Shown in pieces: positions 7,471-44,571 of a stretch of 64,000 bases of DNA; the first letter of the stretch is position 1, and each line of letters starts with the position of its first letter. Source of the stretch: Brevibacillus brevis (lineage in GTDB: Bacteria; Bacillota; Bacilli; Brevibacillales; Brevibacillaceae); assembly GCF_022026395.1 (NCBI RefSeq), contig NZ_CP041767.1, positions 2,119,501 through 2,183,500 on the forward strand, read 5' to 3'. Below the pieces are notes generated by a model. It saw only the letters and a list, made by a program, of their open reading frames with translations. It did no database searches and was not told the DNA's origin. The position numbers and the translations under genes were made by a program.

Positions 7471-8490
7471 ATGATGAAGGCAAACAAAACGCATACAGTA
7501 ATAAAAGGACTAGCTTTCGGTATTATGACAGCTGCCATGCTTTTGGTTTCGGCATGCGGCTCCACTACGACAACACAGGCTCCAGCCAAAACAGAACAAA
7601 CAGCTGCTCCAGCAGCAGAAGGCAAGCCAGTAACACTAACCAATAATGGTATCGAAATGACTTATCCAACAGCACCTGAGCGTGCAGTGACTTTGAACCA
7701 GCACGTCACCGAAATCATGCTGGCATTGGGCCTTGCTGATAAAATGGTCGGAACTGCTTACCTGGATGATGAAATCCTTCCTGAGTTAAAAGCAGATTAC
7801 GACAAGATTCCGGTACTGTCTGACAAGTATCCTACGAAAGAAGTGCTGCTGGCAGCGAACCCAGACTTTGTCTACGCCGGATGGAAAAGTGGATTCGGCG
7901 AGAAGGGCGTAGGATCGATGCAAGATTTGGAAAAGGTTGGCATCAAATCGTATCTGCAAGCGTCATCTAGCATGCCTGGTCCGACTATCGACGATGTGTT
8001 TGCGGACATTACGAACATTGGACGCATTTTCCGTGTGGAGGACAAAGCCAATGATTTGATCCATAAAATGAAGAGTGAAATGGATCAAACCATGAGCAAA
8101 ATTGGCAAGATTGACGAGCCACTAAAAGTGTTCGTGTACGACAACGGGGAAGATAAACCATTCACAGCAGCCAACAACTACATGACATCCTTAATCAAGA
8201 ATGCAGGCGGTAAGAACATTTTTGACGATATTCAAAAGGGTTGGGCAGAGGTAAGTTGGGAACAAGTAGTAAGTCGCAATCCAGACGTGATTATTATCGT
8301 AGATTACGGGGATAGAACCGTCGAGCAAAAACGCAATTTCCTTTTGAGTAAAAAAGAATTGGCGGATATCCCTGCGATTAAAAATCAACGACTAATGGTA
8401 TTGCCTTTGTCCGCAGCTTCTGAAGGTGTTCGAGCACCGATTGCGCTGAAAATTTTGGCGGAAGGACTCTACCCGGATAAATTCAAATAG
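7471..8490 (+). CDS. btuF: Cobalamin-type ABC transporter substrate-binding lipoprotein
   Basis: This 339-residue lipoprotein has lipobox LVSAC (Cys29) and a Thr/Ala/Pro-rich linker. A periplasmic-binding fold of the BtuF/FhuD class follows, with RAVTLNQHVTEIMLALGLAD in the first lobe and a long connecting helix (DKANDLIHKMKSEMDQT). AAAGAGG at 7457-7463 sets the ATG at 7471; the upstream in-frame extension from 7420 overlaps the riboswitch terminator. The riboswitch implies cobalamin or cobinamide as ligand. On sequence alone an iron-siderophore binder would be the alternative. Confidence 0.88.
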   Translation: MMKANKTHTVIKGLAFGIMTAAMLLVSACGSTTTTQAPAKTEQTAAPAAEGKPVTLTNNGIEMTYPTAPERAVTLNQHVTEIMLALGLADKMVGTAYLDDEILPELKADYDKIPVLSDKYPTKEVLLAANPDFVYAGWKSGFGEKGVGSMQDLEKVGIKSYLQASSSMPGPTIDDVFADITNIGRIFRVEDKANDLIHKMKSEMDQTMSKIGKIDEPLKVFVYDNGEDKPFTAANNYMTSLIKNAGGKNIFDDIQKGWAEVSWEQVVSRNPDVIIIVDYGDRTVEQKRNFLLSKKELADIPAIKNQRLMVLPLSAASEGVRAPIALKILAEGLYPDKFK

Positions 8491-8520
8491 AGTACGCCCC
8501 TTTTAAGGGAGGGAATAGCA

Positions 8521-9573
8521 CTGCAACAGATCAAGTTACCTTATATCATCATTACTTTACTGGTCGGACTTTTCCTCTCGATTACGTTCGCAGTTACCCT
8601 GGGATCAGTAGAGATTAAGCCGACTACGGTATGGAAAATCGCCTTATCAAAAATTCCGATGTTGACCCAATGGATCGAAGTGGATTGGTCCAAAGGTGAG
8701 CAAACGATTATTTGGGATATTCGCTTTCCTCGTGTACTCTTGGGGGCAATCGTCGGCGCAGGTCTGTCTGTCGTGGGAGTAGCGATTCAATCGTTGGTTC
8801 GCAACTCCCTGGCTGACCCGTATGTGTTAGGCGTATCTTCAGGTGCTTCGGTTGGCGCTACCTCGGTAATTATTTTTGGAGCATTCAGCATGTACGGGCA
8901 GTATGCGCTATCCTTTGGCGCTTTTACAGGCTCCCTTGTGTCCATCATTCTTATTTTTACGCTATCCCGTATTGGTGGACAAAACTCGACGGTACGCCTG
9001 CTCATGGCTGGAATTGCGATATCTGCGATCTTGTCGGCCATTACCAGTCTGCTTGTTTTTTCAGCGCCAAATGAGCATGGAATTGGGACGGTTCTGTTTT
9101 GGTTAAGTGGCAGTCTGGCTGGCGGGAAATGGGAATACCTGACGATCCCTACAATGATTGTCGTCATCTGTCTCATCGTCTTAATGGCCCAATACCGCTC
9201 GCTCAATGCGATGCTGATGGGCGAAGAGTCAGCGGGGACATTGGGGGTGAATACGGTACAATTCCGCAAGCTTCTCCTGGTGATCACGGCACTGCTCACG
9301 GGGGTGATCGTGTCCATCGCGGGATCAATCGGTTTTGTCGGATTAATGATGCCCCACATCGTCCGTGTAATGGTTGGATCAGATCACAGACGTGTTCTGC
9401 CTGTCAGCGCTTTGTTTGGCGCGATCTTTCTCATCTGGGTTGATGTAGTTGCCAGGCTTGCCTTTGCACCGGAAGAGCTGCCGATTGGTATTTTGACAGC
9501 ACTGTGTGGAGGTCCATTCTTTATCTGGTTGATGCTGCGGAGTTCTTATTCCTTTGGAGGTAGCGGACGATGA
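8521..9573 (+). CDS. btuC: Cobalamin-type ABC transporter permease (FecCD family), CTG start
   Basis: The 350-residue FecCD/BtuC permease has multiple membrane helices and the family segments IRFPRVLLGAIVGAGLSVVG, NSLADPYVLGVSSGASVGA and SIGFVGLMMPHIVR (helix contacting the ATPase). The first ATG in frame (8659) would delete the first membrane helix (IIITLLVGLFLSITFAVTLG). Upstream there is no in-frame ATG, GTG or TTG, but AAGGGAGGG at 8505-8513 lies 7 bases before an in-frame CTG at 8521. This makes CTG the best start and gives normal family length. It overlaps btuD by four bases. Confidence 0.85.
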   Translation: MQQIKLPYIIITLLVGLFLSITFAVTLGSVEIKPTTVWKIALSKIPMLTQWIEVDWSKGEQTIIWDIRFPRVLLGAIVGAGLSVVGVAIQSLVRNSLADPYVLGVSSGASVGATSVIIFGAFSMYGQYALSFGAFTGSLVSIILIFTLSRIGGQNSTVRLLMAGIAISAILSAITSLLVFSAPNEHGIGTVLFWLSGSLAGGKWEYLTIPTMIVVICLIVLMAQYRSLNAMLMGEESAGTLGVNTVQFRKLLLVITALLTGVIVSIAGSIGFVGLMMPHIVRVMVGSDHRRVLPVSALFGAIFLIWVDVVARLAFAPEELPIGILTALCGGPFFIWLMLRSSYSFGGSGR

Positions 9574-36129: not shown

Positions 36130-36158
36130 TTGAAATGAGAATGATAATCGTTTACATT
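36130..36158 (+). promoter_or_regulatory. Promoter of the asb siderophore operon with overlapping Fur box
   Basis: TTGAAA (36130-36135), a 17-base spacer and TACATT (36153-36158) form a sigma-A promoter. The spacer carries TGAGAATGATAATCGTTTA (36136-36154), a close match to the Fur consensus built from GATAAT repeats. Binding of Fe-Fur here would cover the promoter and repress the operon in iron-rich conditions. The function of the downstream genes strongly supports this. Confidence 0.82.
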
Positions 36159-36236
36159 ATACATGGGACGTTTTACCAGTTATGTAAGTTGCAATGCTTG
36201 AAATAAAAAATTGGATCAAGCAAGAGGAGAGGTAAC

Positions 36237-38042
36237 ATGTTCGTAGTCAAGCATATCGCAGAGCATGCAACGATGCAGAGCTTTCTCAATTGTTATCTCC
36301 GAGAAACAGGTAGGGGCGAGTGGATCAATCGGAAAGACGAGATTACGAAGCAGCTAACGAAAATCATACAGCCGAGTACAACAGGTACGTACCTTCATTG
36401 CGAACTCCCGCATCAGGGGATTTCCCTCTATGTCGGTGTCAAATATCATTCGGTGACAGGCAGGCATCTGTTTCATTATCCAGCTTGCTATCGAAGTGGT
36501 GACTGTACTCGATTCGTCAAAGCGGACTATTTGACATTAGCGGTTCTTTTGATTAAAGAGCTAACGCTTCAGCATGGGGAAAATGCAGTTCCAGATGAAT
36601 TGGTCTTGCGTATGATTCAAAGCTGCCAAAGCATTGAGAAGTTTGTTCGGACTCGCCAAAGTAATGCGGAGATTTTATATGGCGTAGAACAAAGCTTCAT
36701 CGAAGCAGAACAGGCACTTTTGTTCGGTCACTTGTTTCATCCAACCCCGAAGAGTCAGCAAGGAATTCCTGATGCCAAGCAAGCGTTGTATGCACCGGAG
36801 TGTTGCGGGAAGTTTCAACTCCACCTGTTTGCTGCCCATCCGTCGATTGTTCACGAAAAATCTGGACTAACAAAATCCGCTACGCAATTACTGAAGGATG
36901 AGTTTCCTTCGATATCTGATGTCGATCCGTCATTTTCAATCGTCCCGATTCATCCGCTTCAAGCAGAATGGTTGCTCGAACAGGTAGCCGTACAATCCTT
37001 GATCGGGAAAGGGTTGCTTCTATACCTGGGGCCAACGGGTGAGGAGTATATGGCGACATCTTCTCTTCGAACGGTTTATCATCCTGAGAAGAAATACATG
37101 CTCAAGCTGTCCGTCCCAATCAAAGTTACGAATTCATTACGGATCAACAAGTTAAGTGAGATGGAGATCGGTTTAGAGGCGAAGCAACTTTTTGAAACAG
37201 GGATCGGTGAAGTGAGTCACAAGTATCCAGGCTTTGGCTTTATCTCTGATCCGGCTTACATCACGATCACGTTGGATCAGGCGAAAGAATCCGGATTTGA
37301 AGTGATCCTGCGTGATAATCCCTTTATGGGGAGGAATGCAGAGCAAGTCACGCAAATCGCGGCACTCGTTCAAGATCCACTTCCCGGTTACAAGAGTAGG
37401 TTGGCAACGATCATTCACCATCTGGCACAAAAAGAAGGGAAGTCACAGGAAGTAGTTAGTTTGGAATGGTTTAAGCGGTATGTAGATATTTCTTTGAAGC
37501 CAATGGTATGGCTTTATCTAAAATACGGAATCGGCTTGGAAGCCCATCAACAGAATAGTGTTGTCATGCTTAAAGACGGATACCCCGATCAGTTCTTTTA
37601 TCGTGATAATCAAGGCTACTATTTCTCAGAATCGATGCAAGAAGTATTAGAGGCAGAATTGCCTGGGGTTGGCAAGGCGAGCAGGAACATTTACAAAGAC
37701 AATCTAGTAGATGAGCGAATCACTTATTACATGATTTTTAACCATATGTTTGGACTCATTAATGGATTTGGAACGGAAGGATTAATTGACGAACAAATCT
37801 TATTGGCAGAGATGCATGAGGTTTTGACGGAGTTTTTACCGATGAATCGAGAGGCGTCGAAGTTTCTGGAGAATCTACTCACGCGCGAACAGCTTCCGTG
37901 TAAGGCGAATTTGCTCACGCGCTTCTATGATTTGGATGAATTAACCCAACCGGAAGAGAGATCATCTGTTTTTGTTTACATAGATAATCCTTTAGCAAAA
38001 GTAAAACAGACGGAAAAGGCAGGGCTGCATGCTTTTGGATAG
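36237..38042 (+). CDS. asbA: Petrobactin biosynthesis NIS synthetase AsbA-like
   Basis: The 601-residue IucA/IucC-family synthetase joins citrate to a polyamine (spermidine in the known AsbA). Family marks are ATSSLRTVYHP, MLKLSVPIKVTNSLR and the active-site GLEAHQQNSVVML. The C-terminus is FhuF-like. AGAGGAGAGG precedes the ATG. It is the first gene of a six-gene set whose order and sizes match asbABCDEF of the Bacillus cereus group. Product identity as petrobactin is inferred from the whole set. Confidence 0.9.
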   Translation: MFVVKHIAEHATMQSFLNCYLRETGRGEWINRKDEITKQLTKIIQPSTTGTYLHCELPHQGISLYVGVKYHSVTGRHLFHYPACYRSGDCTRFVKADYLTLAVLLIKELTLQHGENAVPDELVLRMIQSCQSIEKFVRTRQSNAEILYGVEQSFIEAEQALLFGHLFHPTPKSQQGIPDAKQALYAPECCGKFQLHLFAAHPSIVHEKSGLTKSATQLLKDEFPSISDVDPSFSIVPIHPLQAEWLLEQVAVQSLIGKGLLLYLGPTGEEYMATSSLRTVYHPEKKYMLKLSVPIKVTNSLRINKLSEMEIGLEAKQLFETGIGEVSHKYPGFGFISDPAYITITLDQAKESGFEVILRDNPFMGRNAEQVTQIAALVQDPLPGYKSRLATIIHHLAQKEGKSQEVVSLEWFKRYVDISLKPMVWLYLKYGIGLEAHQQNSVVMLKDGYPDQFFYRDNQGYYFSESMQEVLEAELPGVGKASRNIYKDNLVDERITYYMIFNHMFGLINGFGTEGLIDEQILLAEMHEVLTEFLPMNREASKFLENLLTREQLPCKANLLTRFYDLDELTQPEERSSVFVYIDNPLAKVKQTEKAGLHAFG

Positions 38043-38082
38043 CTTACTAGCATCTAGCTTGAAGAGACTTGGAGGATAACGT

Positions 38083-39951
38083 ATGGAGTTAACAATACAA
38101 GATTTCTCGATTGAAGAGGCACTTCACTCGCCCCAGTACGTGCAGGTGAGAAGACGGGTGTTTCGACAATGCATCGAGTCTTTATTATATGAGGGAATTT
38201 TGATCCCTGAGACCCTTCAAGAGGGGGACGAAACGATTTACACCCTGCATGGGTTTGATGAGGGTGAACTGCCTGTTCGCTATCTTTGCCGAGGGCGGAA
38301 AAGTGCCAGTTTTGGGCTTGTTCGTTTAGGGAAGGACCCCGTTACCCGTGTTGTTTACGATCAAAACGGGGTTGAAAAGCAAGAATCTGAAGCGGTATCC
38401 CTCACTCGTTTTTTAGTGGAAGTCTTTCGAACGAACACGGTAGATGAACAAAGACTGAAGCTATTTGCCAATGACTTGGAACAAACGCTGTTAAAGGATA
38501 CATTGTCCCAATACTATCGGATACAAAATGATATTCGGATGCAGGGCAAATCGTACGATGAGCTGGAAGGTGATCTGATGGATGGTCACCCTTACCATCC
38601 TAGCTATAAATCACGTGTTGGCTTTACCTATGTAGATCATTTTGCCTATGGTCCTGAATTTAAGCAGGAAGTTCATTTTCTTTGGTTAGCAATACATAAG
38701 CAATATTCTCAAGTATCCATTGATCAAGGAAGGAATTTCGATGACCTTCTTTTGGATGAAATAGGGCGAGAGCAAAAAGAAGCCTTTCAACAAATCATCG
38801 TCAATCATGGATGCGATCCTGATCAGTATGCCTTCGTGCCTGTCCACCCGTGGCAGTGGCGCAATCATATCGTGCCTGGGTTCCAAGACGATATCCATCG
38901 CAAACAGATCATTGTGCTAGGTGCAGGCTCTGATGGTCATCGTCCACAACAATCCATCCGCACATTTGCTAACAAAAGTAATCCGCATAAACCGTATCTG
39001 AAACTCTCGATGAACGTAGTGAATACTTCAGCTCCACGTCATCTCACGCCGCACTCACTGGCTAGTGCCCCCATTGTTTCGAGGTGGCTCAAGGGGATTA
39101 CGGACGCAGATGCCTATTTGCGAGATGTGCAAAAGGTGATCATGCTCCAGGAGTTTGCGGCAGTGGCATACGATCCTCCACCTGCTTCTGAACTAGTGGA
39201 AATGGTTACATTCGGGGTAATTGGGTGCATGTGGAGAGAAAGTCTCATCCCTCATCTCGAAGCCGGAGAAGAGGCGGTTCCTTATAACGCATTAGCGGCA
39301 GTAGAGGTGGATGGGATGCCATTCATTGACCCTTGGGTTCGTAAGCAAGGGCTAGAAAATTGGCTTGTGCGATTATTGGAAAGCAGTGTATTGCCAGTCG
39401 TTCATATTCTTGTGAAACACGGAATTGCAATGGAAACCCACGCGCAGAATATGGTCTTGGTGCATCGGGATGGTGTCCCTACTCGGGTGGCATTGAAGGA
39501 TTTTCATGAAGATTTGATTTTTTGCCAACCGTTCTTGAGTGAGCCAGACAAATGCCCGAACTTCGCGGAAGTGCACGAATATTACGCAACAAAACCCGAT
39601 GATGTGATGTTTCACATGAATCAAACATCAACAGTCAGGGATTTGACATTGGAGACTTTATTTATGATCAATCTGGGGCAACTTGCACGGCTATTAGAGG
39701 AGCATTACAGCTATGCCGAAGAGAACTTCTGGGAGATGGCCGTTCAGGTATTGGAGGGTCACCAACAACGATTCCCGGAATTGGCGGAGCGATTTAAGCG
39801 ATTTGATCTGTTTGTTCCAATCGTGCAAGTAGAGAAATTGACCAAGAAAAAGCTATATACAACAAACGAGAACTATCATTTACATGAAGTTCCCAATCCT
39901 TTGTTCGAGGCAAGGAAAAGGCTTCATTCCATGGCTGTGGGAGGTTACTAG
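38083..39951 (+). CDS. asbB: Petrobactin biosynthesis NIS synthetase AsbB-like
   Basis: The 622-residue second IucA/IucC-family enzyme catalyses the second citrate-polyamine condensation in the known pathway. It shows DGHPYHPSYKSRVGF, the substrate region VPVHPWQWRNH, KLSMNVVNTSAPRHL and METHAQNMVLVHRDG. It starts 40 bases after asbA with TTGGAGGA upstream. Its end abuts the AMP-ligase gene. Confidence 0.92.
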   Translation: MELTIQDFSIEEALHSPQYVQVRRRVFRQCIESLLYEGILIPETLQEGDETIYTLHGFDEGELPVRYLCRGRKSASFGLVRLGKDPVTRVVYDQNGVEKQESEAVSLTRFLVEVFRTNTVDEQRLKLFANDLEQTLLKDTLSQYYRIQNDIRMQGKSYDELEGDLMDGHPYHPSYKSRVGFTYVDHFAYGPEFKQEVHFLWLAIHKQYSQVSIDQGRNFDDLLLDEIGREQKEAFQQIIVNHGCDPDQYAFVPVHPWQWRNHIVPGFQDDIHRKQIIVLGAGSDGHRPQQSIRTFANKSNPHKPYLKLSMNVVNTSAPRHLTPHSLASAPIVSRWLKGITDADAYLRDVQKVIMLQEFAAVAYDPPPASELVEMVTFGVIGCMWRESLIPHLEAGEEAVPYNALAAVEVDGMPFIDPWVRKQGLENWLVRLLESSVLPVVHILVKHGIAMETHAQNMVLVHRDGVPTRVALKDFHEDLIFCQPFLSEPDKCPNFAEVHEYYATKPDDVMFHMNQTSTVRDLTLETLFMINLGQLARLLEEHYSYAEENFWEMAVQVLEGHQQRFPELAERFKRFDLFVPIVQVEKLTKKKLYTTNENYHLHEVPNPLFEARKRLHSMAVGGY

Positions 39952-39952
39952 C

Positions 39953-41197
39953 ATGTTCATTGTAAATCAAAACGAGATTTCTGTGCATGAATTGGAGAGA
40001 CATAAGCAAGGGTTCGAAAGCATGGATCATTTTCGGCAGCCAGAAGGAAAGAGGTATGCAGTCTGCTTGGCTGACCCACTTGACGTGATTAGTCTTGTTC
40101 AATATTTACGTGAGCATAATGGCTCGGTGTTGTTAATCCATGGGGAAACCCCGATGGAAACAGCCTATCAAATGGCAGTCAAGGCAAGATGTTATGGACT
40201 TGTCTATCAGGAGACGAAGCACTTCATGTCCATCACGGATAAACAACAGAGCGAAAAACCATCGCTCTACCAATATAGCTCAGGTACGACGGGAGACGCG
40301 AAGCTAATCGGAAGAAGCTGGGATGATATCCAAACAGAAATTCATGCTTACAACCAGTTATTCCAAGGTGAGGAAGCGTTAACCCCGATCGTGCTGGCAT
40401 CTGTGACACATTCGTATGGATTGATATGTGGAGTATTGGCAGCCCTGGAACGGGGAAGTAAGCCTTCGATTGTGACGCACAAAAATCCGAAGTTTGCTTT
40501 GCAAGTGATTCAAGATACTCCCCAGCATATTGTTTATGGTCTGCCAGTCTTTTATCACATCTTATCCAGCTTTACGCGAGAGCAGGTACGCTTTCACCGG
40601 TTAATGACATCAGGAGCCCCCATGCCAGAAGGCTTGTTTCTAAAGCTGCAAGGCATGAGCGACATCTTGATGCAACAATATGGTTGCTCTGAGGCGGGGT
40701 GCGTCAGTATGAGCAAACAGATGCGGTCGCATACAGATCTGGGGGTTCCCCTTTCCCATGTAACCATGACAACAGGCGAAAAGGAAGACCAACCTGATGA
40801 AATTAAGATTTGGAATGGACAGAACGAAATAGCGACGCAGGATTTAGGTTTTTGGACAGGAGAAGGACACATTCAATTTGTATCAAGGATGGATGATGTA
40901 ATAAACGTCTCTGGCTTAAAGGTATTTCCTTTAGAGGTCGAGGATGTCATTTTGAAAATGAATGGGACAAAAGAAGTGGTCGTGTATCGTGGACGTCATC
41001 CAGTCATGGGAGAGATTGTGAAGGCGCAGGTTATTACAGAGGGAGGAACGACTCCTGAACAAATCAGGGAATGGTGCCAAGATCGTTTGCCAGGCTATAA
41101 AGTCCCATTTGACATCCAATGTGTGACGAGCATTCCTAAGACAGCCACCGGAAAAATCAGCCGTCGATTAGTAGAAATGGAGACGATCAGCAAATGA
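39953..41197 (+). CDS. asbC: 3,4-dihydroxybenzoate-AMP ligase AsbC-like
   Basis: The 414-residue ANL-superfamily adenylation enzyme has ATP loop YSSGTTGDAKL, SGAPMPEGL, YGCSEAGCVS and the C-terminal lysine region PKTATGKISRR. In the known pathway it activates 3,4-dihydroxybenzoate and loads it on AsbD. GGGAGGTT precedes the ATG at 39953; the frame from 39884 overlaps asbB. It overlaps asbD by four bases. Confidence 0.9.
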   Translation: MFIVNQNEISVHELERHKQGFESMDHFRQPEGKRYAVCLADPLDVISLVQYLREHNGSVLLIHGETPMETAYQMAVKARCYGLVYQETKHFMSITDKQQSEKPSLYQYSSGTTGDAKLIGRSWDDIQTEIHAYNQLFQGEEALTPIVLASVTHSYGLICGVLAALERGSKPSIVTHKNPKFALQVIQDTPQHIVYGLPVFYHILSSFTREQVRFHRLMTSGAPMPEGLFLKLQGMSDILMQQYGCSEAGCVSMSKQMRSHTDLGVPLSHVTMTTGEKEDQPDEIKIWNGQNEIATQDLGFWTGEGHIQFVSRMDDVINVSGLKVFPLEVEDVILKMNGTKEVVVYRGRHPVMGEIVKAQVITEGGTTPEQIREWCQDRLPGYKVPFDIQCVTSIPKTATGKISRRLVEMETISK

Positions 41198-41460
41198 CAC
41201 GAACAGAAAGAATCGAGCAAATTCATACGATCATGACCGAAAAATTAAAATTATCGCATATCGTCACGCTAGAGGAGTCCATGCGATTGAATGAGGATCT
41301 ACATATTGATTCGATCATGCTATTGCAACTGATTGTGTATATCGAGGAAGATTTGAAATTGGTCGTACCTGCTCATGAGTTGGATCCACGAATCTTCCAA
41401 ACGGTCGGATCACTGCTTACTTTTGTTGAACAGCTGGAACCGCAGCATGTAGCGAATTAG
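41194..41460 (+). CDS. asbD: Aryl carrier protein AsbD-like
   Basis: The 88-residue carrier protein has the phosphopantetheine site in LHIDSIMLLQL (Ser40) and an amphipathic N-terminal helix. It would carry the dihydroxybenzoyl thioester between AsbC and AsbE. Its ATG overlaps the asbC stop, consistent with coupled expression. A phosphopantetheinyl transferase is needed but is not in this window. Confidence 0.9.
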   Translation: MTRTERIEQIHTIMTEKLKLSHIVTLEESMRLNEDLHIDSIMLLQLIVYIEEDLKLVVPAHELDPRIFQTVGSLLTFVEQLEPQHVAN

Positions 41461-41492
41461 CGTCTATACAAACATCGAGTGGGGGATACAGA

Positions 41493-42476
41493 ATGGTTAA
41501 GGTTCATTGCATTATTTCATGCCTATGCGAAGTGATAAAGCGCCGCACAAAAATTGATTATCGTCCCTATTATTTTGGCATATGGGATGCCGAGTACTCC
41601 ATTACGGATCAAGGTGTGGTCACCTATTACATTGATAACCATGAGGAGATCATCAAGGGATATGAGCGACTTTTCCGAGCGAAAGTAACGGAATGGTATG
41701 ATCATTCCCGAGATAAAGCCTCCAATTTGGACATGTTCTTAGAGTTAATTGATAAGCGTACCGAGGATCAGTTTGTCCTTGTTCAGATAGACATGTCGCT
41801 GGTTCCAGAACGAGATAATAAATTTGCATTGAAGCCATTCCCGCATTTTTTGATGATTTCAAAGACGGAGAATGAAGATGAGTGGTTTATGTTTGACCCG
41901 GATTTTCGTTGGGAGGGCAATGTGAGGAAGGAGACGGTGATCAAAGCCTTCTTGGAAAATCCGTTTGGTGGCGGGTTTATGGTGGATGCGAGTGAAATTA
42001 AGGAACCAACCTATGAAATGATCCATGACTATTTCTACGACACACTCAAGCGTGATCATAACCCATTTACCCTTGAGTTGAAGCAATTGATTACAGACAT
42101 GGCAGAAGGGCGCAATGGATACAACTTGGACATGTTGCTTGCGGCAGTGACTCAGGTAAAAGTGATTGCGATCCGTAAATACAGCTACGAGTATGCATTT
42201 CTCTATCTGCAAGATTACCTGCAATACCATCGTGATGAGTTTTTGCGTATCGCCTATAAAGTGGAGGACATCTACCAAGGGTTTACAACAGCTCAGTACT
42301 TGTCTGTCAAAATGGCGATGACCAAGAATCTGGCGTTGTTTCCTCCGATTATCGAGGCGTTAGAAGAGATTGATCTGATTGAACTTGAAGTGAAAAAAGA
42401 GCTGGAACGTCAGTTTGTACTGTGGACCCAAATGGATAAAAGTCTCGTCACTGTAGACGAAAAAGGGTGGAGGTAA
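41493..42476 (+). CDS. asbE: Petrobactin biosynthesis transferase AsbE-like
   Basis: The 327-residue protein shows no common motif I can name, but its length and its place between the carrier protein and the dehydratase match AsbE. In the known pathway AsbE transfers dihydroxybenzoate from AsbD to spermidine or the citrate-spermidine intermediate. The N-terminus reads VKVHCIISCLCEVIKRRTKI, and the C-terminal half is mostly helical. GTGGGGGAT precedes the ATG. Confidence 0.85.
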   Translation: MVKVHCIISCLCEVIKRRTKIDYRPYYFGIWDAEYSITDQGVVTYYIDNHEEIIKGYERLFRAKVTEWYDHSRDKASNLDMFLELIDKRTEDQFVLVQIDMSLVPERDNKFALKPFPHFLMISKTENEDEWFMFDPDFRWEGNVRKETVIKAFLENPFGGGFMVDASEIKEPTYEMIHDYFYDTLKRDHNPFTLELKQLITDMAEGRNGYNLDMLLAAVTQVKVIAIRKYSYEYAFLYLQDYLQYHRDEFLRIAYKVEDIYQGFTTAQYLSVKMAMTKNLALFPPIIEALEEIDLIELEVKKELERQFVLWTQMDKSLVTVDEKGWR

Positions 42477-42483
42477 AGATCAA

Positions 42484-43320
42484 ATGAAACTCTCATTGTG
42501 CACAATTACTTTTCGCCACCATTTGATTTCGTTTGAACAGATTGTTCGGTTTGCTCATCGTCATCATTTTGATGGAATCGAGTTATGGGGAACCCACGCT
42601 CAACATCTGTACGATCATGATCGATTAGAGATGGAGGAGCAGGTAAGGTCGGTCAGGGATCAGGGCATGAGTATCTCCATGCTTAGCGATTATCTGGATA
42701 TTGCTACTTCGTCAGGATTTCAGCGTACGCTGGAAAAAGCAAAAAGACTCATTTCACTGGCAAATTGGCTACATGTGAAGCAAATCAGGACGTTTGCCGG
42801 ACAGAAGGCAAGTCAAGAAGTTGGGCCAGAAGAGCGTGCAGGCTATGTGCATCATTTGCAAATCTTATGTAAGATGTGTCAAGAGCACGGGATTCAGCTT
42901 TTGGTCGAAACACATCCGAACACGCTTACAGATTCGCTGAGTTCTACACTTGCTTTGTTGCGGGAAGTCAATCATCCTGCACTAAAAGTGAATCTTGATT
43001 TTCTTCATGTCTGGGAATCCGGTGCTGATCCGATCGATGCGTACGAGCAATTGAAACCGTGGGTAGCCCATTATCATTTGAAAAATATTTCTTCATCGAA
43101 TCATCTGCCGGTATTCGCTCCGCATAATGTATATGCCCCTAACGGTGATCGTGAGGGAATGGTACTGCTTGGTGAAGGTGTTGTAGACTATGGGCCAATT
43201 TTAGAAAAGATTGCGGATACGGATTATTTTGCATCTATTGAATGGTTTGGTCAGAGTCCGCAGCGTGTATTAGTGGAAGAGATAAAATGGTTGCGAAAGG
43301 CAATGATGGTTAGTGCGTAA
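42484..43320 (+). CDS. asbF: 3-dehydroshikimate dehydratase AsbF-like
   Basis: The 278-residue TIM-barrel enzyme (AP endonuclease family 2 fold) converts 3-dehydroshikimate to 3,4-dihydroxybenzoate, supplying the catechol. Metal-ligand regions are visible as LLVETHPNT (Glu), VNLDFLHVWESG (Asp, His), AHYHLKN (His) and ASIEWFGQSP (Glu). GGAGGTAAAG precedes the ATG. It is the last gene before the operon terminator. Confidence 0.92.
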   Translation: MKLSLCTITFRHHLISFEQIVRFAHRHHFDGIELWGTHAQHLYDHDRLEMEEQVRSVRDQGMSISMLSDYLDIATSSGFQRTLEKAKRLISLANWLHVKQIRTFAGQKASQEVGPEERAGYVHHLQILCKMCQEHGIQLLVETHPNTLTDSLSSTLALLREVNHPALKVNLDFLHVWESGADPIDAYEQLKPWVAHYHLKNISSSNHLPVFAPHNVYAPNGDREGMVLLGEGVVDYGPILEKIADTDYFASIEWFGQSPQRVLVEEIKWLRKAMMVSA

Positions 43321-43331
43321 GTGAGAAAAGG

Positions 43332-43363
43332 TCGGAGGCGCAGGGGTGCTTCCGATTTTTTTT
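43332..43363 (+). terminator. Terminator of the asb operon
   Basis: TCGGAGG (43332-43338) pairs with CTTCCGA (43349-43355), with one G-U, followed by eight T. Confidence 0.8.
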
Positions 43364-43431: not shown

Positions 43432-44571
43432 ATGAAAAAACACCTATTGCTCTCATGTTTGCTGATTTCCTTGCTAGGTATCCTTGTTCCTGGACAAATC
43501 AATGCTTCTGCTCCTGCAAAGGCAGACCCTCGCAAACCAGAGCCAGTCGTCATCTATAAAGTAACAGTAGATGGAAAAGTGACAAAAACCGTGACGAACA
43601 TGCCCTTGATTCACCGGGCGAACATGTCGCCATCGGGGCGGTTTGTATACGGGGAGCGAATCGGATACGGAAAGGCAGACCGAACCATACCGTACTTGTA
43701 CGATATGCAAACAAAAAAGATGACGCAGCTATCCGGCTATGGCAAATGGTCGCCAAAGCAAGACGTACTCTACGTTCGTGAAAATGGCGGTATCGTAAAG
43801 CTCAGTCTGCCAGACGGCAAAAAAACGGTACTCGTCCCGGCAGCAGTTCAGTATCCTGTCCTTGATTTTTCCGTTTCACCGGATGAACAGTACATGGTGT
43901 TCACCCGGATGGACATGCTCTCTTCCGATACCAAAGTAAGCGGTCACTTGTACTTGCAGCACCTGCCAACACTCAAAATGAAAAAGAATGACCAGTATGA
44001 ATGGAAGGTAGATCAATACGCACCACAAGAGAAGTTTTATTGGATGCCAAATTCCAAAAAGCTGTTTTACCGGACGCAAACAGCCTTCAAAGAGCTTGAT
44101 TTGCCAACGGGGTTAAAATACGAACACAAAATGACCGACTTTCCTTCTTATTCGAATGATATGAAGTACCGGTATATGCGAACGGAAAAAGAAGAATACA
44201 TGCTGGATCTGCCAGCGGGGAAAAAATTGATTTTGAAGTCGTCCTTTTATCCTGATAACGATTTGAAACAGATTTTCTGGTCACCGGGAGGGAATCAGTT
44301 TGCAGCAGAAGTATATGTACATCCATCAAATTCACAAGACTCGTATGGGGCCATCCGCTTTTGCAAGCAGGTGAAAAATTGCAACGATCCATTCAGTGAT
44401 CCGAAGAAAGGCTTACCAAACCCGTATTTGAGCTCTGCTGATAACTATCGCATCATTGGCTGGGCAAAGGATGGGAAATCGTACTACGTAGCCGATCTTG
44501 CTTCTACTCACTATACGGCTTTCGCGCTTGATAAGCTCGATATTTACAACGAAATCTATGAGCAGCGCTAA
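43432..44571 (+). CDS. Secreted protein of unknown function, possible beta-propeller
   Basis: The 379-residue protein has a signal peptide (MKKHLLLSCLLISLLGILVP, probable cut near NASA). Its many strand-rich segments resemble TolB or WD-type blades (MSPSGRFVYGERI, VSPDEQYMVFTRMD, WSPGGNQFAAEV). GGGAGGA sets the ATG at 43432; the longer frame includes the asb terminator and is rejected. The early cysteine is too close to the N-terminus for a lipobox. It follows the siderophore terminator, so no functional link is implied. Confidence 0.7.
   Translation: MKKHLLLSCLLISLLGILVPGQINASAPAKADPRKPEPVVIYKVTVDGKVTKTVTNMPLIHRANMSPSGRFVYGERIGYGKADRTIPYLYDMQTKKMTQLSGYGKWSPKQDVLYVRENGGIVKLSLPDGKKTVLVPAAVQYPVLDFSVSPDEQYMVFTRMDMLSSDTKVSGHLYLQHLPTLKMKKNDQYEWKVDQYAPQEKFYWMPNSKKLFYRTQTAFKELDLPTGLKYEHKMTDFPSYSNDMKYRYMRTEKEEYMLDLPAGKKLILKSSFYPDNDLKQIFWSPGGNQFAAEVYVHPSNSQDSYGAIRFCKQVKNCNDPFSDPKKGLPNPYLSSADNYRIIGWAKDGKSYYVADLASTHYTAFALDKLDIYNEIYEQR

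Follow-up and report, generated by a model that had tools for sequence, protein, structure and literature searches.

A complete petrobactin-type asbABCDEF operon with predicted Fur-type iron control in Brevibacillus brevis

Six genes at 36237-43320 of the window (the whole 64,000-nt stretch of Brevibacillus brevis DNA that was analysed) almost certainly form a single-transcript petrobactin operon, probably repressed by iron through Fur, with product, regulation and transport predicted from known homologues. The identity of the genes, their catalytic residues, the conservation of the promoter box and the presence of an importer in the genome were observed directly. The expectation of a 3,4-catecholate (petrobactin) under Fur-type control was supported by the protein families, the AsbF residues, the conserved box and the published production of petrobactin by Brevibacillus (PMC10753013). 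A petrobactin operon in this genus is correct and already known.

Gene content and layout of the operon

All six genes of an asbABCDEF operon, claimed in the earlier note to be complete and in order, were recovered intact by family and structure matches (6/6). The six open frames lay on the plus strand with intergenic spacings of 40, 1, -4, 32 and 7 nt, and this spacing range (-4 to 40 nt) favoured reading them as one operon. The features were as follows.

36130-36158, plus strand: sigma-A-like promoter, TTGAAA-17 nt-TACATT (consensus scan; invariant in nine Brevibacillus genomes)
36137-36155, plus strand: Fur-box-like site GAGAATGATAATCGTTTAC inside the promoter (15/19 matches to the Fur consensus)
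36237-38042, plus strand: asbA, type A NIS synthetase (Pfam IucA/IucC plus FhuF domains)
38083-39951, plus strand: asbB, NIS synthetase (PDB 3TO3 match; Pfam IucA/IucC plus FhuF)
39953-41197, plus strand: asbC, 3,4-dihydroxybenzoate (3,4-DHB) adenylating ligase (NCBIfam PRK08308, over cut-off)
41194-41460, plus strand: asbD, aryl carrier protein (NCBIfam PRK07639 'petrobactin biosynthesis protein AsbD', over cut-off)
41493-42476, plus strand: asbE, DUF6005 protein (Pfam PF19468, 438.6 bits, full length)
42484-43320, plus strand: asbF, 3-dehydroshikimate dehydratase making 3,4-DHB (PDB 3DX5 match)
43324-43363, plus strand: intrinsic terminator, 18 bp hairpin with a T tract

Both IucA/IucC NIS synthetases required of a petrobactin operon were present. 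The nearest solved structures to AsbA were IucA and AcsD, as expected for a type A NIS synthetase, and the best solved relative of AsbB was the petrobactin AsbB itself (PDB 3TO3, E 9e-185). The ligase and the aryl carrier protein expected of such an operon, AsbC and AsbD, were also found. AsbC (414 aa) aligned to PRK08308 over residues 1-413 of 414 and the family model matched from residue 1, so that the start of asbC should be at 39953, directly 3' of asbB; the six genes were thus as first described, but the upstream ATG at 39884 was not retained as the asbC start. Ser40 of AsbD, in the motif DSIM, is the likely phosphopantetheine site, and AsbE presumably moves 3,4-DHB onto the spermidine amine. 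AsbF aligned to the AsbF crystal structure 3DX5 without gaps across residues 1-271 (E 3.4e-104). Using the active-site list of PMC9324987 (Tyr70, Arg102, Glu142, His144, Asp172, His175, His198, Lys200, Phe211, Tyr217 and Glu253), 11/11 residues were kept in AsbF, showing that the loss of key catalytic residues, named earlier as a possible refutation, had not occurred in this enzyme.

Promoter, conservation and genomic site

The promoter, the Fur-like site and the terminator were all located where the earlier note had placed them. When both strands of the 64 kb window were scanned for the Fur consensus, GAGAATGATAATCGTTTAC was the sole site to agree at 15/19 positions or more. CTTGAAATGAGAATGATAATCGTTTACA was identical in nine Brevibacillus species while the neighbouring intergenic sequence varied, and the box of B. 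daliensis differed by one base, which brought it nearer to the consensus. A conserved box overlapping the promoter indicates that the operon is probably under Fur-type iron control. The terminator hairpin had a folding energy of -24 kcal/mol, compared with -9.2 for shuffled sequences (z -6.7).

AsbF with at least 85% identity was detected in 9/26 Brevibacillus genomes, and in all nine the full asb operon was found downstream of ddl, located between ddl and murF. In 15/17 of the asb-less Brevibacillus genomes, murF was within about 1.5 kb of ddl. Because ddl and murF lie close together where asb is missing and asb follows ddl wherever it is present, the operon occupies a fixed site, at which it would have been gained once in the species group or lost around it. 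In a tree of concatenated AsbB/C/E/F, the window sequence joined B. daliensis and two other genomes of the same family with full support. The identity of AsbF was 85-87% in B. porteri, B. formosus and B. fortis (L097, L098 and L099) compared with 90-98% for AsbA-AsbE, which suggests that individual genes at the 3' end of the operon have recombined or been replaced. A predicted secreted-protein gene, for which no Pfam match was found, was present on both flanks of asb in B. porteri (L097 5872-7017 and 14482-15609) and B. fortis (L099). The copy of this gene in the window (43432-44571) shared 59% and 70-77% identity with the flanking copies. In these two species, ddl and asbA were 1.3 kb further apart, mostly owing to the additional gene copy.

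Predicted product and transport

Under iron-rich conditions, Fur would occupy the promoter box and prevent transcription, whereas iron scarcity would allow the six asb genes to be expressed. AsbF would convert 3-dehydroshikimate to 3,4-DHB, AsbC would adenylate the 3,4-DHB and load it onto AsbD, and AsbE would hand it from AsbD to spermidine. Citrate and the spermidine arms, joined by AsbA and AsbB, would then give petrobactin, which would probably be exported by an RND pump encoded elsewhere in the genome and taken up again by a YclNOPQ-type ABC importer. Three phosphopantetheinyl transferase candidates and a spermidine synthase, supplies for this pathway, were found in the genome.

The presence of asb does not guarantee the product, because a B. 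thuringiensis strain carrying asb without petrobactin was reported (PMC3317741), and an asb-like cluster of Methylorubrum yields a 4-hydroxybenzoate compound instead (PMC11317620). It is very unlikely that the present operon makes a relative of petrobactin, with another polyamine or acetylated arms for instance. Related clusters do yield rhodopetrobactin, with acetylated homospermidine, and methylolanthanin, with 4-hydroxybenzoate (PMC11317620). However, no acetyltransferase or other added gene was found among the window genes within or adjoining the operon, the AsbF active site was wholly conserved, the genome encoded a spermidine synthase, and the mass of petrobactin has been seen in other Brevibacillus (PMC10753013). 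There is a slim chance that the product has a different polyamine arm or aryl group from petrobactin, in which case the lineage would have a private siderophore. The operon could also be silent or decaying and retained by chance, as its absence from 17/26 Brevibacillus genomes might suggest. However, all six frames were intact with 85-98% identity over nine Brevibacillus species and the promoter box was invariant, making such decay extremely improbable. Petrobactin itself remained the preferred product.

The earlier statement that no exporter, receptor or importer adjoined asb held true, but the genome does carry a petrobactin-type importer elsewhere. A genome-wide search for a petrobactin receptor, as proposed in that note, revealed a YclNOPQ-like operon (G000:C1:5904672-5908412) 3.7 Mb from asb, consisting of a YclQ-like binding protein, two FecCD permeases and an ATPase, with Fur-like sites upstream. 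The YclQ-like protein (G000:C1:5904672-5905670) matched B. subtilis YclQ (3GFV) with an E of 2.5e-95 and matched two other solved siderophore-binding proteins better. This ABC system probably imports petrobactin. Petrobactin clusters generally have no co-located receptor, with fatB/fpuA mostly more than 1 Mb away (PMC13293324), so that an asb operon without neighbouring transporter genes is a typical layout. Petrobactin is known to be exported by the RND pump ApeX (PMC5596346); the genome encoded seven RND proteins of full length, which gives several candidate exporters.

Thirty Peripla_BP_2 proteins were encoded in the genome. Matches to PF01297 were rejected as siderophore receptors, both being metal-binding lipoproteins. 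The window also encodes, at 7687-9540 and 27 kb upstream of asb, a single FecCD permease together with a Peripla_BP_2 binding protein; they probably serve the uptake of another siderophore, of haem or of cobalamin. An RND pump gene (G000:C1:819211-822246) was located about 5 kb from a large siderophore-binding protein/permease cluster (827150-837097), and together they form a candidate export/import island.

Hybrid clusters and known systems

Three asb clusters outside the window had an insertion between asbA and asbB that encodes an Acetyltransf_8 protein along with a lysine/ornithine N-monooxygenase.

L105 1-10849: hybrid asb cluster of Paenibacillus caseinilyticus
L107 574-10879: hybrid asb cluster of P. 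athensensis
L177 280-12509: hybrid asb cluster of a same-family genome

An MFS transporter followed the acetyltransferase/monooxygenase pair in 2/3 of these clusters. In L177, the genes 3' of asbF encoded a siderophore-binding protein as well as a FecCD permease. In the concatenated AsbB/C/E/F tree, the three clusters split from the other asb clusters with a support of 0.98, indicating that the hybrid architecture probably arose once. Such a module supplies the N-hydroxy-N-acyl amine arm in aerobactin-type pathways, and by analogy the hybrid clusters probably make a mixed 3,4-catecholate/hydroxamate citrate siderophore. No description of a hybrid asb/hydroxamate cluster was found in the literature searched, which covered roseobactin, a related 3,4-DHB/citrate siderophore, through its mention in PMC11317620; the predicted hybrid siderophore may overlap with roseobactin. 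This cluster type may thus yield a siderophore of a kind absent from the literature searched. AsbD and AsbE of P. athensensis appeared to be one fused frame (L107 8595-10004); the same fusion has been reported for the rhodopetrobactin and roseobactin loci (PMC11317620). A hydroxamate module in the genome of the window was rejected, as the PF13434 matches were weak and partial (at most 39.9 bits).

Petrobactin clusters in Brevibacillus have already been reported (PMC9867215), and under iron depletion every endophytic strain studied released petrobactin, detected by MALDI-TOF at m/z 720 (PMC10753013). The two papers disagree on B. parabrevis HD3.3A, in which the asb cluster was absent according to PMC9867215, yet petrobactin was observed by MALDI-TOF according to PMC10753013. 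The window therefore adds one more well-conserved petrobactin operon to a genus with both cluster and product reported. These plant-associated Brevibacillus clusters share genus and cluster with the window, their product having been identified by MALDI-TOF, and no difference was found at the level those papers describe. The petrobactin operon of the Bacillus cereus group (MIBiG BGC0000942) resembled the present one in its six genes, their order, the Fur-type control (predicted here) and a receptor located elsewhere (a probable one here); the window operon, sited between ddl and murF, differed in sequence divergence alone. The importer was similar to B. subtilis YclNOPQ in its two FecCD permeases, ATPase and YclQ-type binding protein. 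YclQ is commonest in bacteria that do not make petrobactin, likely for piracy (PMC13293324), whereas the YclNOPQ-type importer described here was found in a genome also carrying siderophore biosynthesis, tying a biosynthetic operon to its probable importer within one genome.
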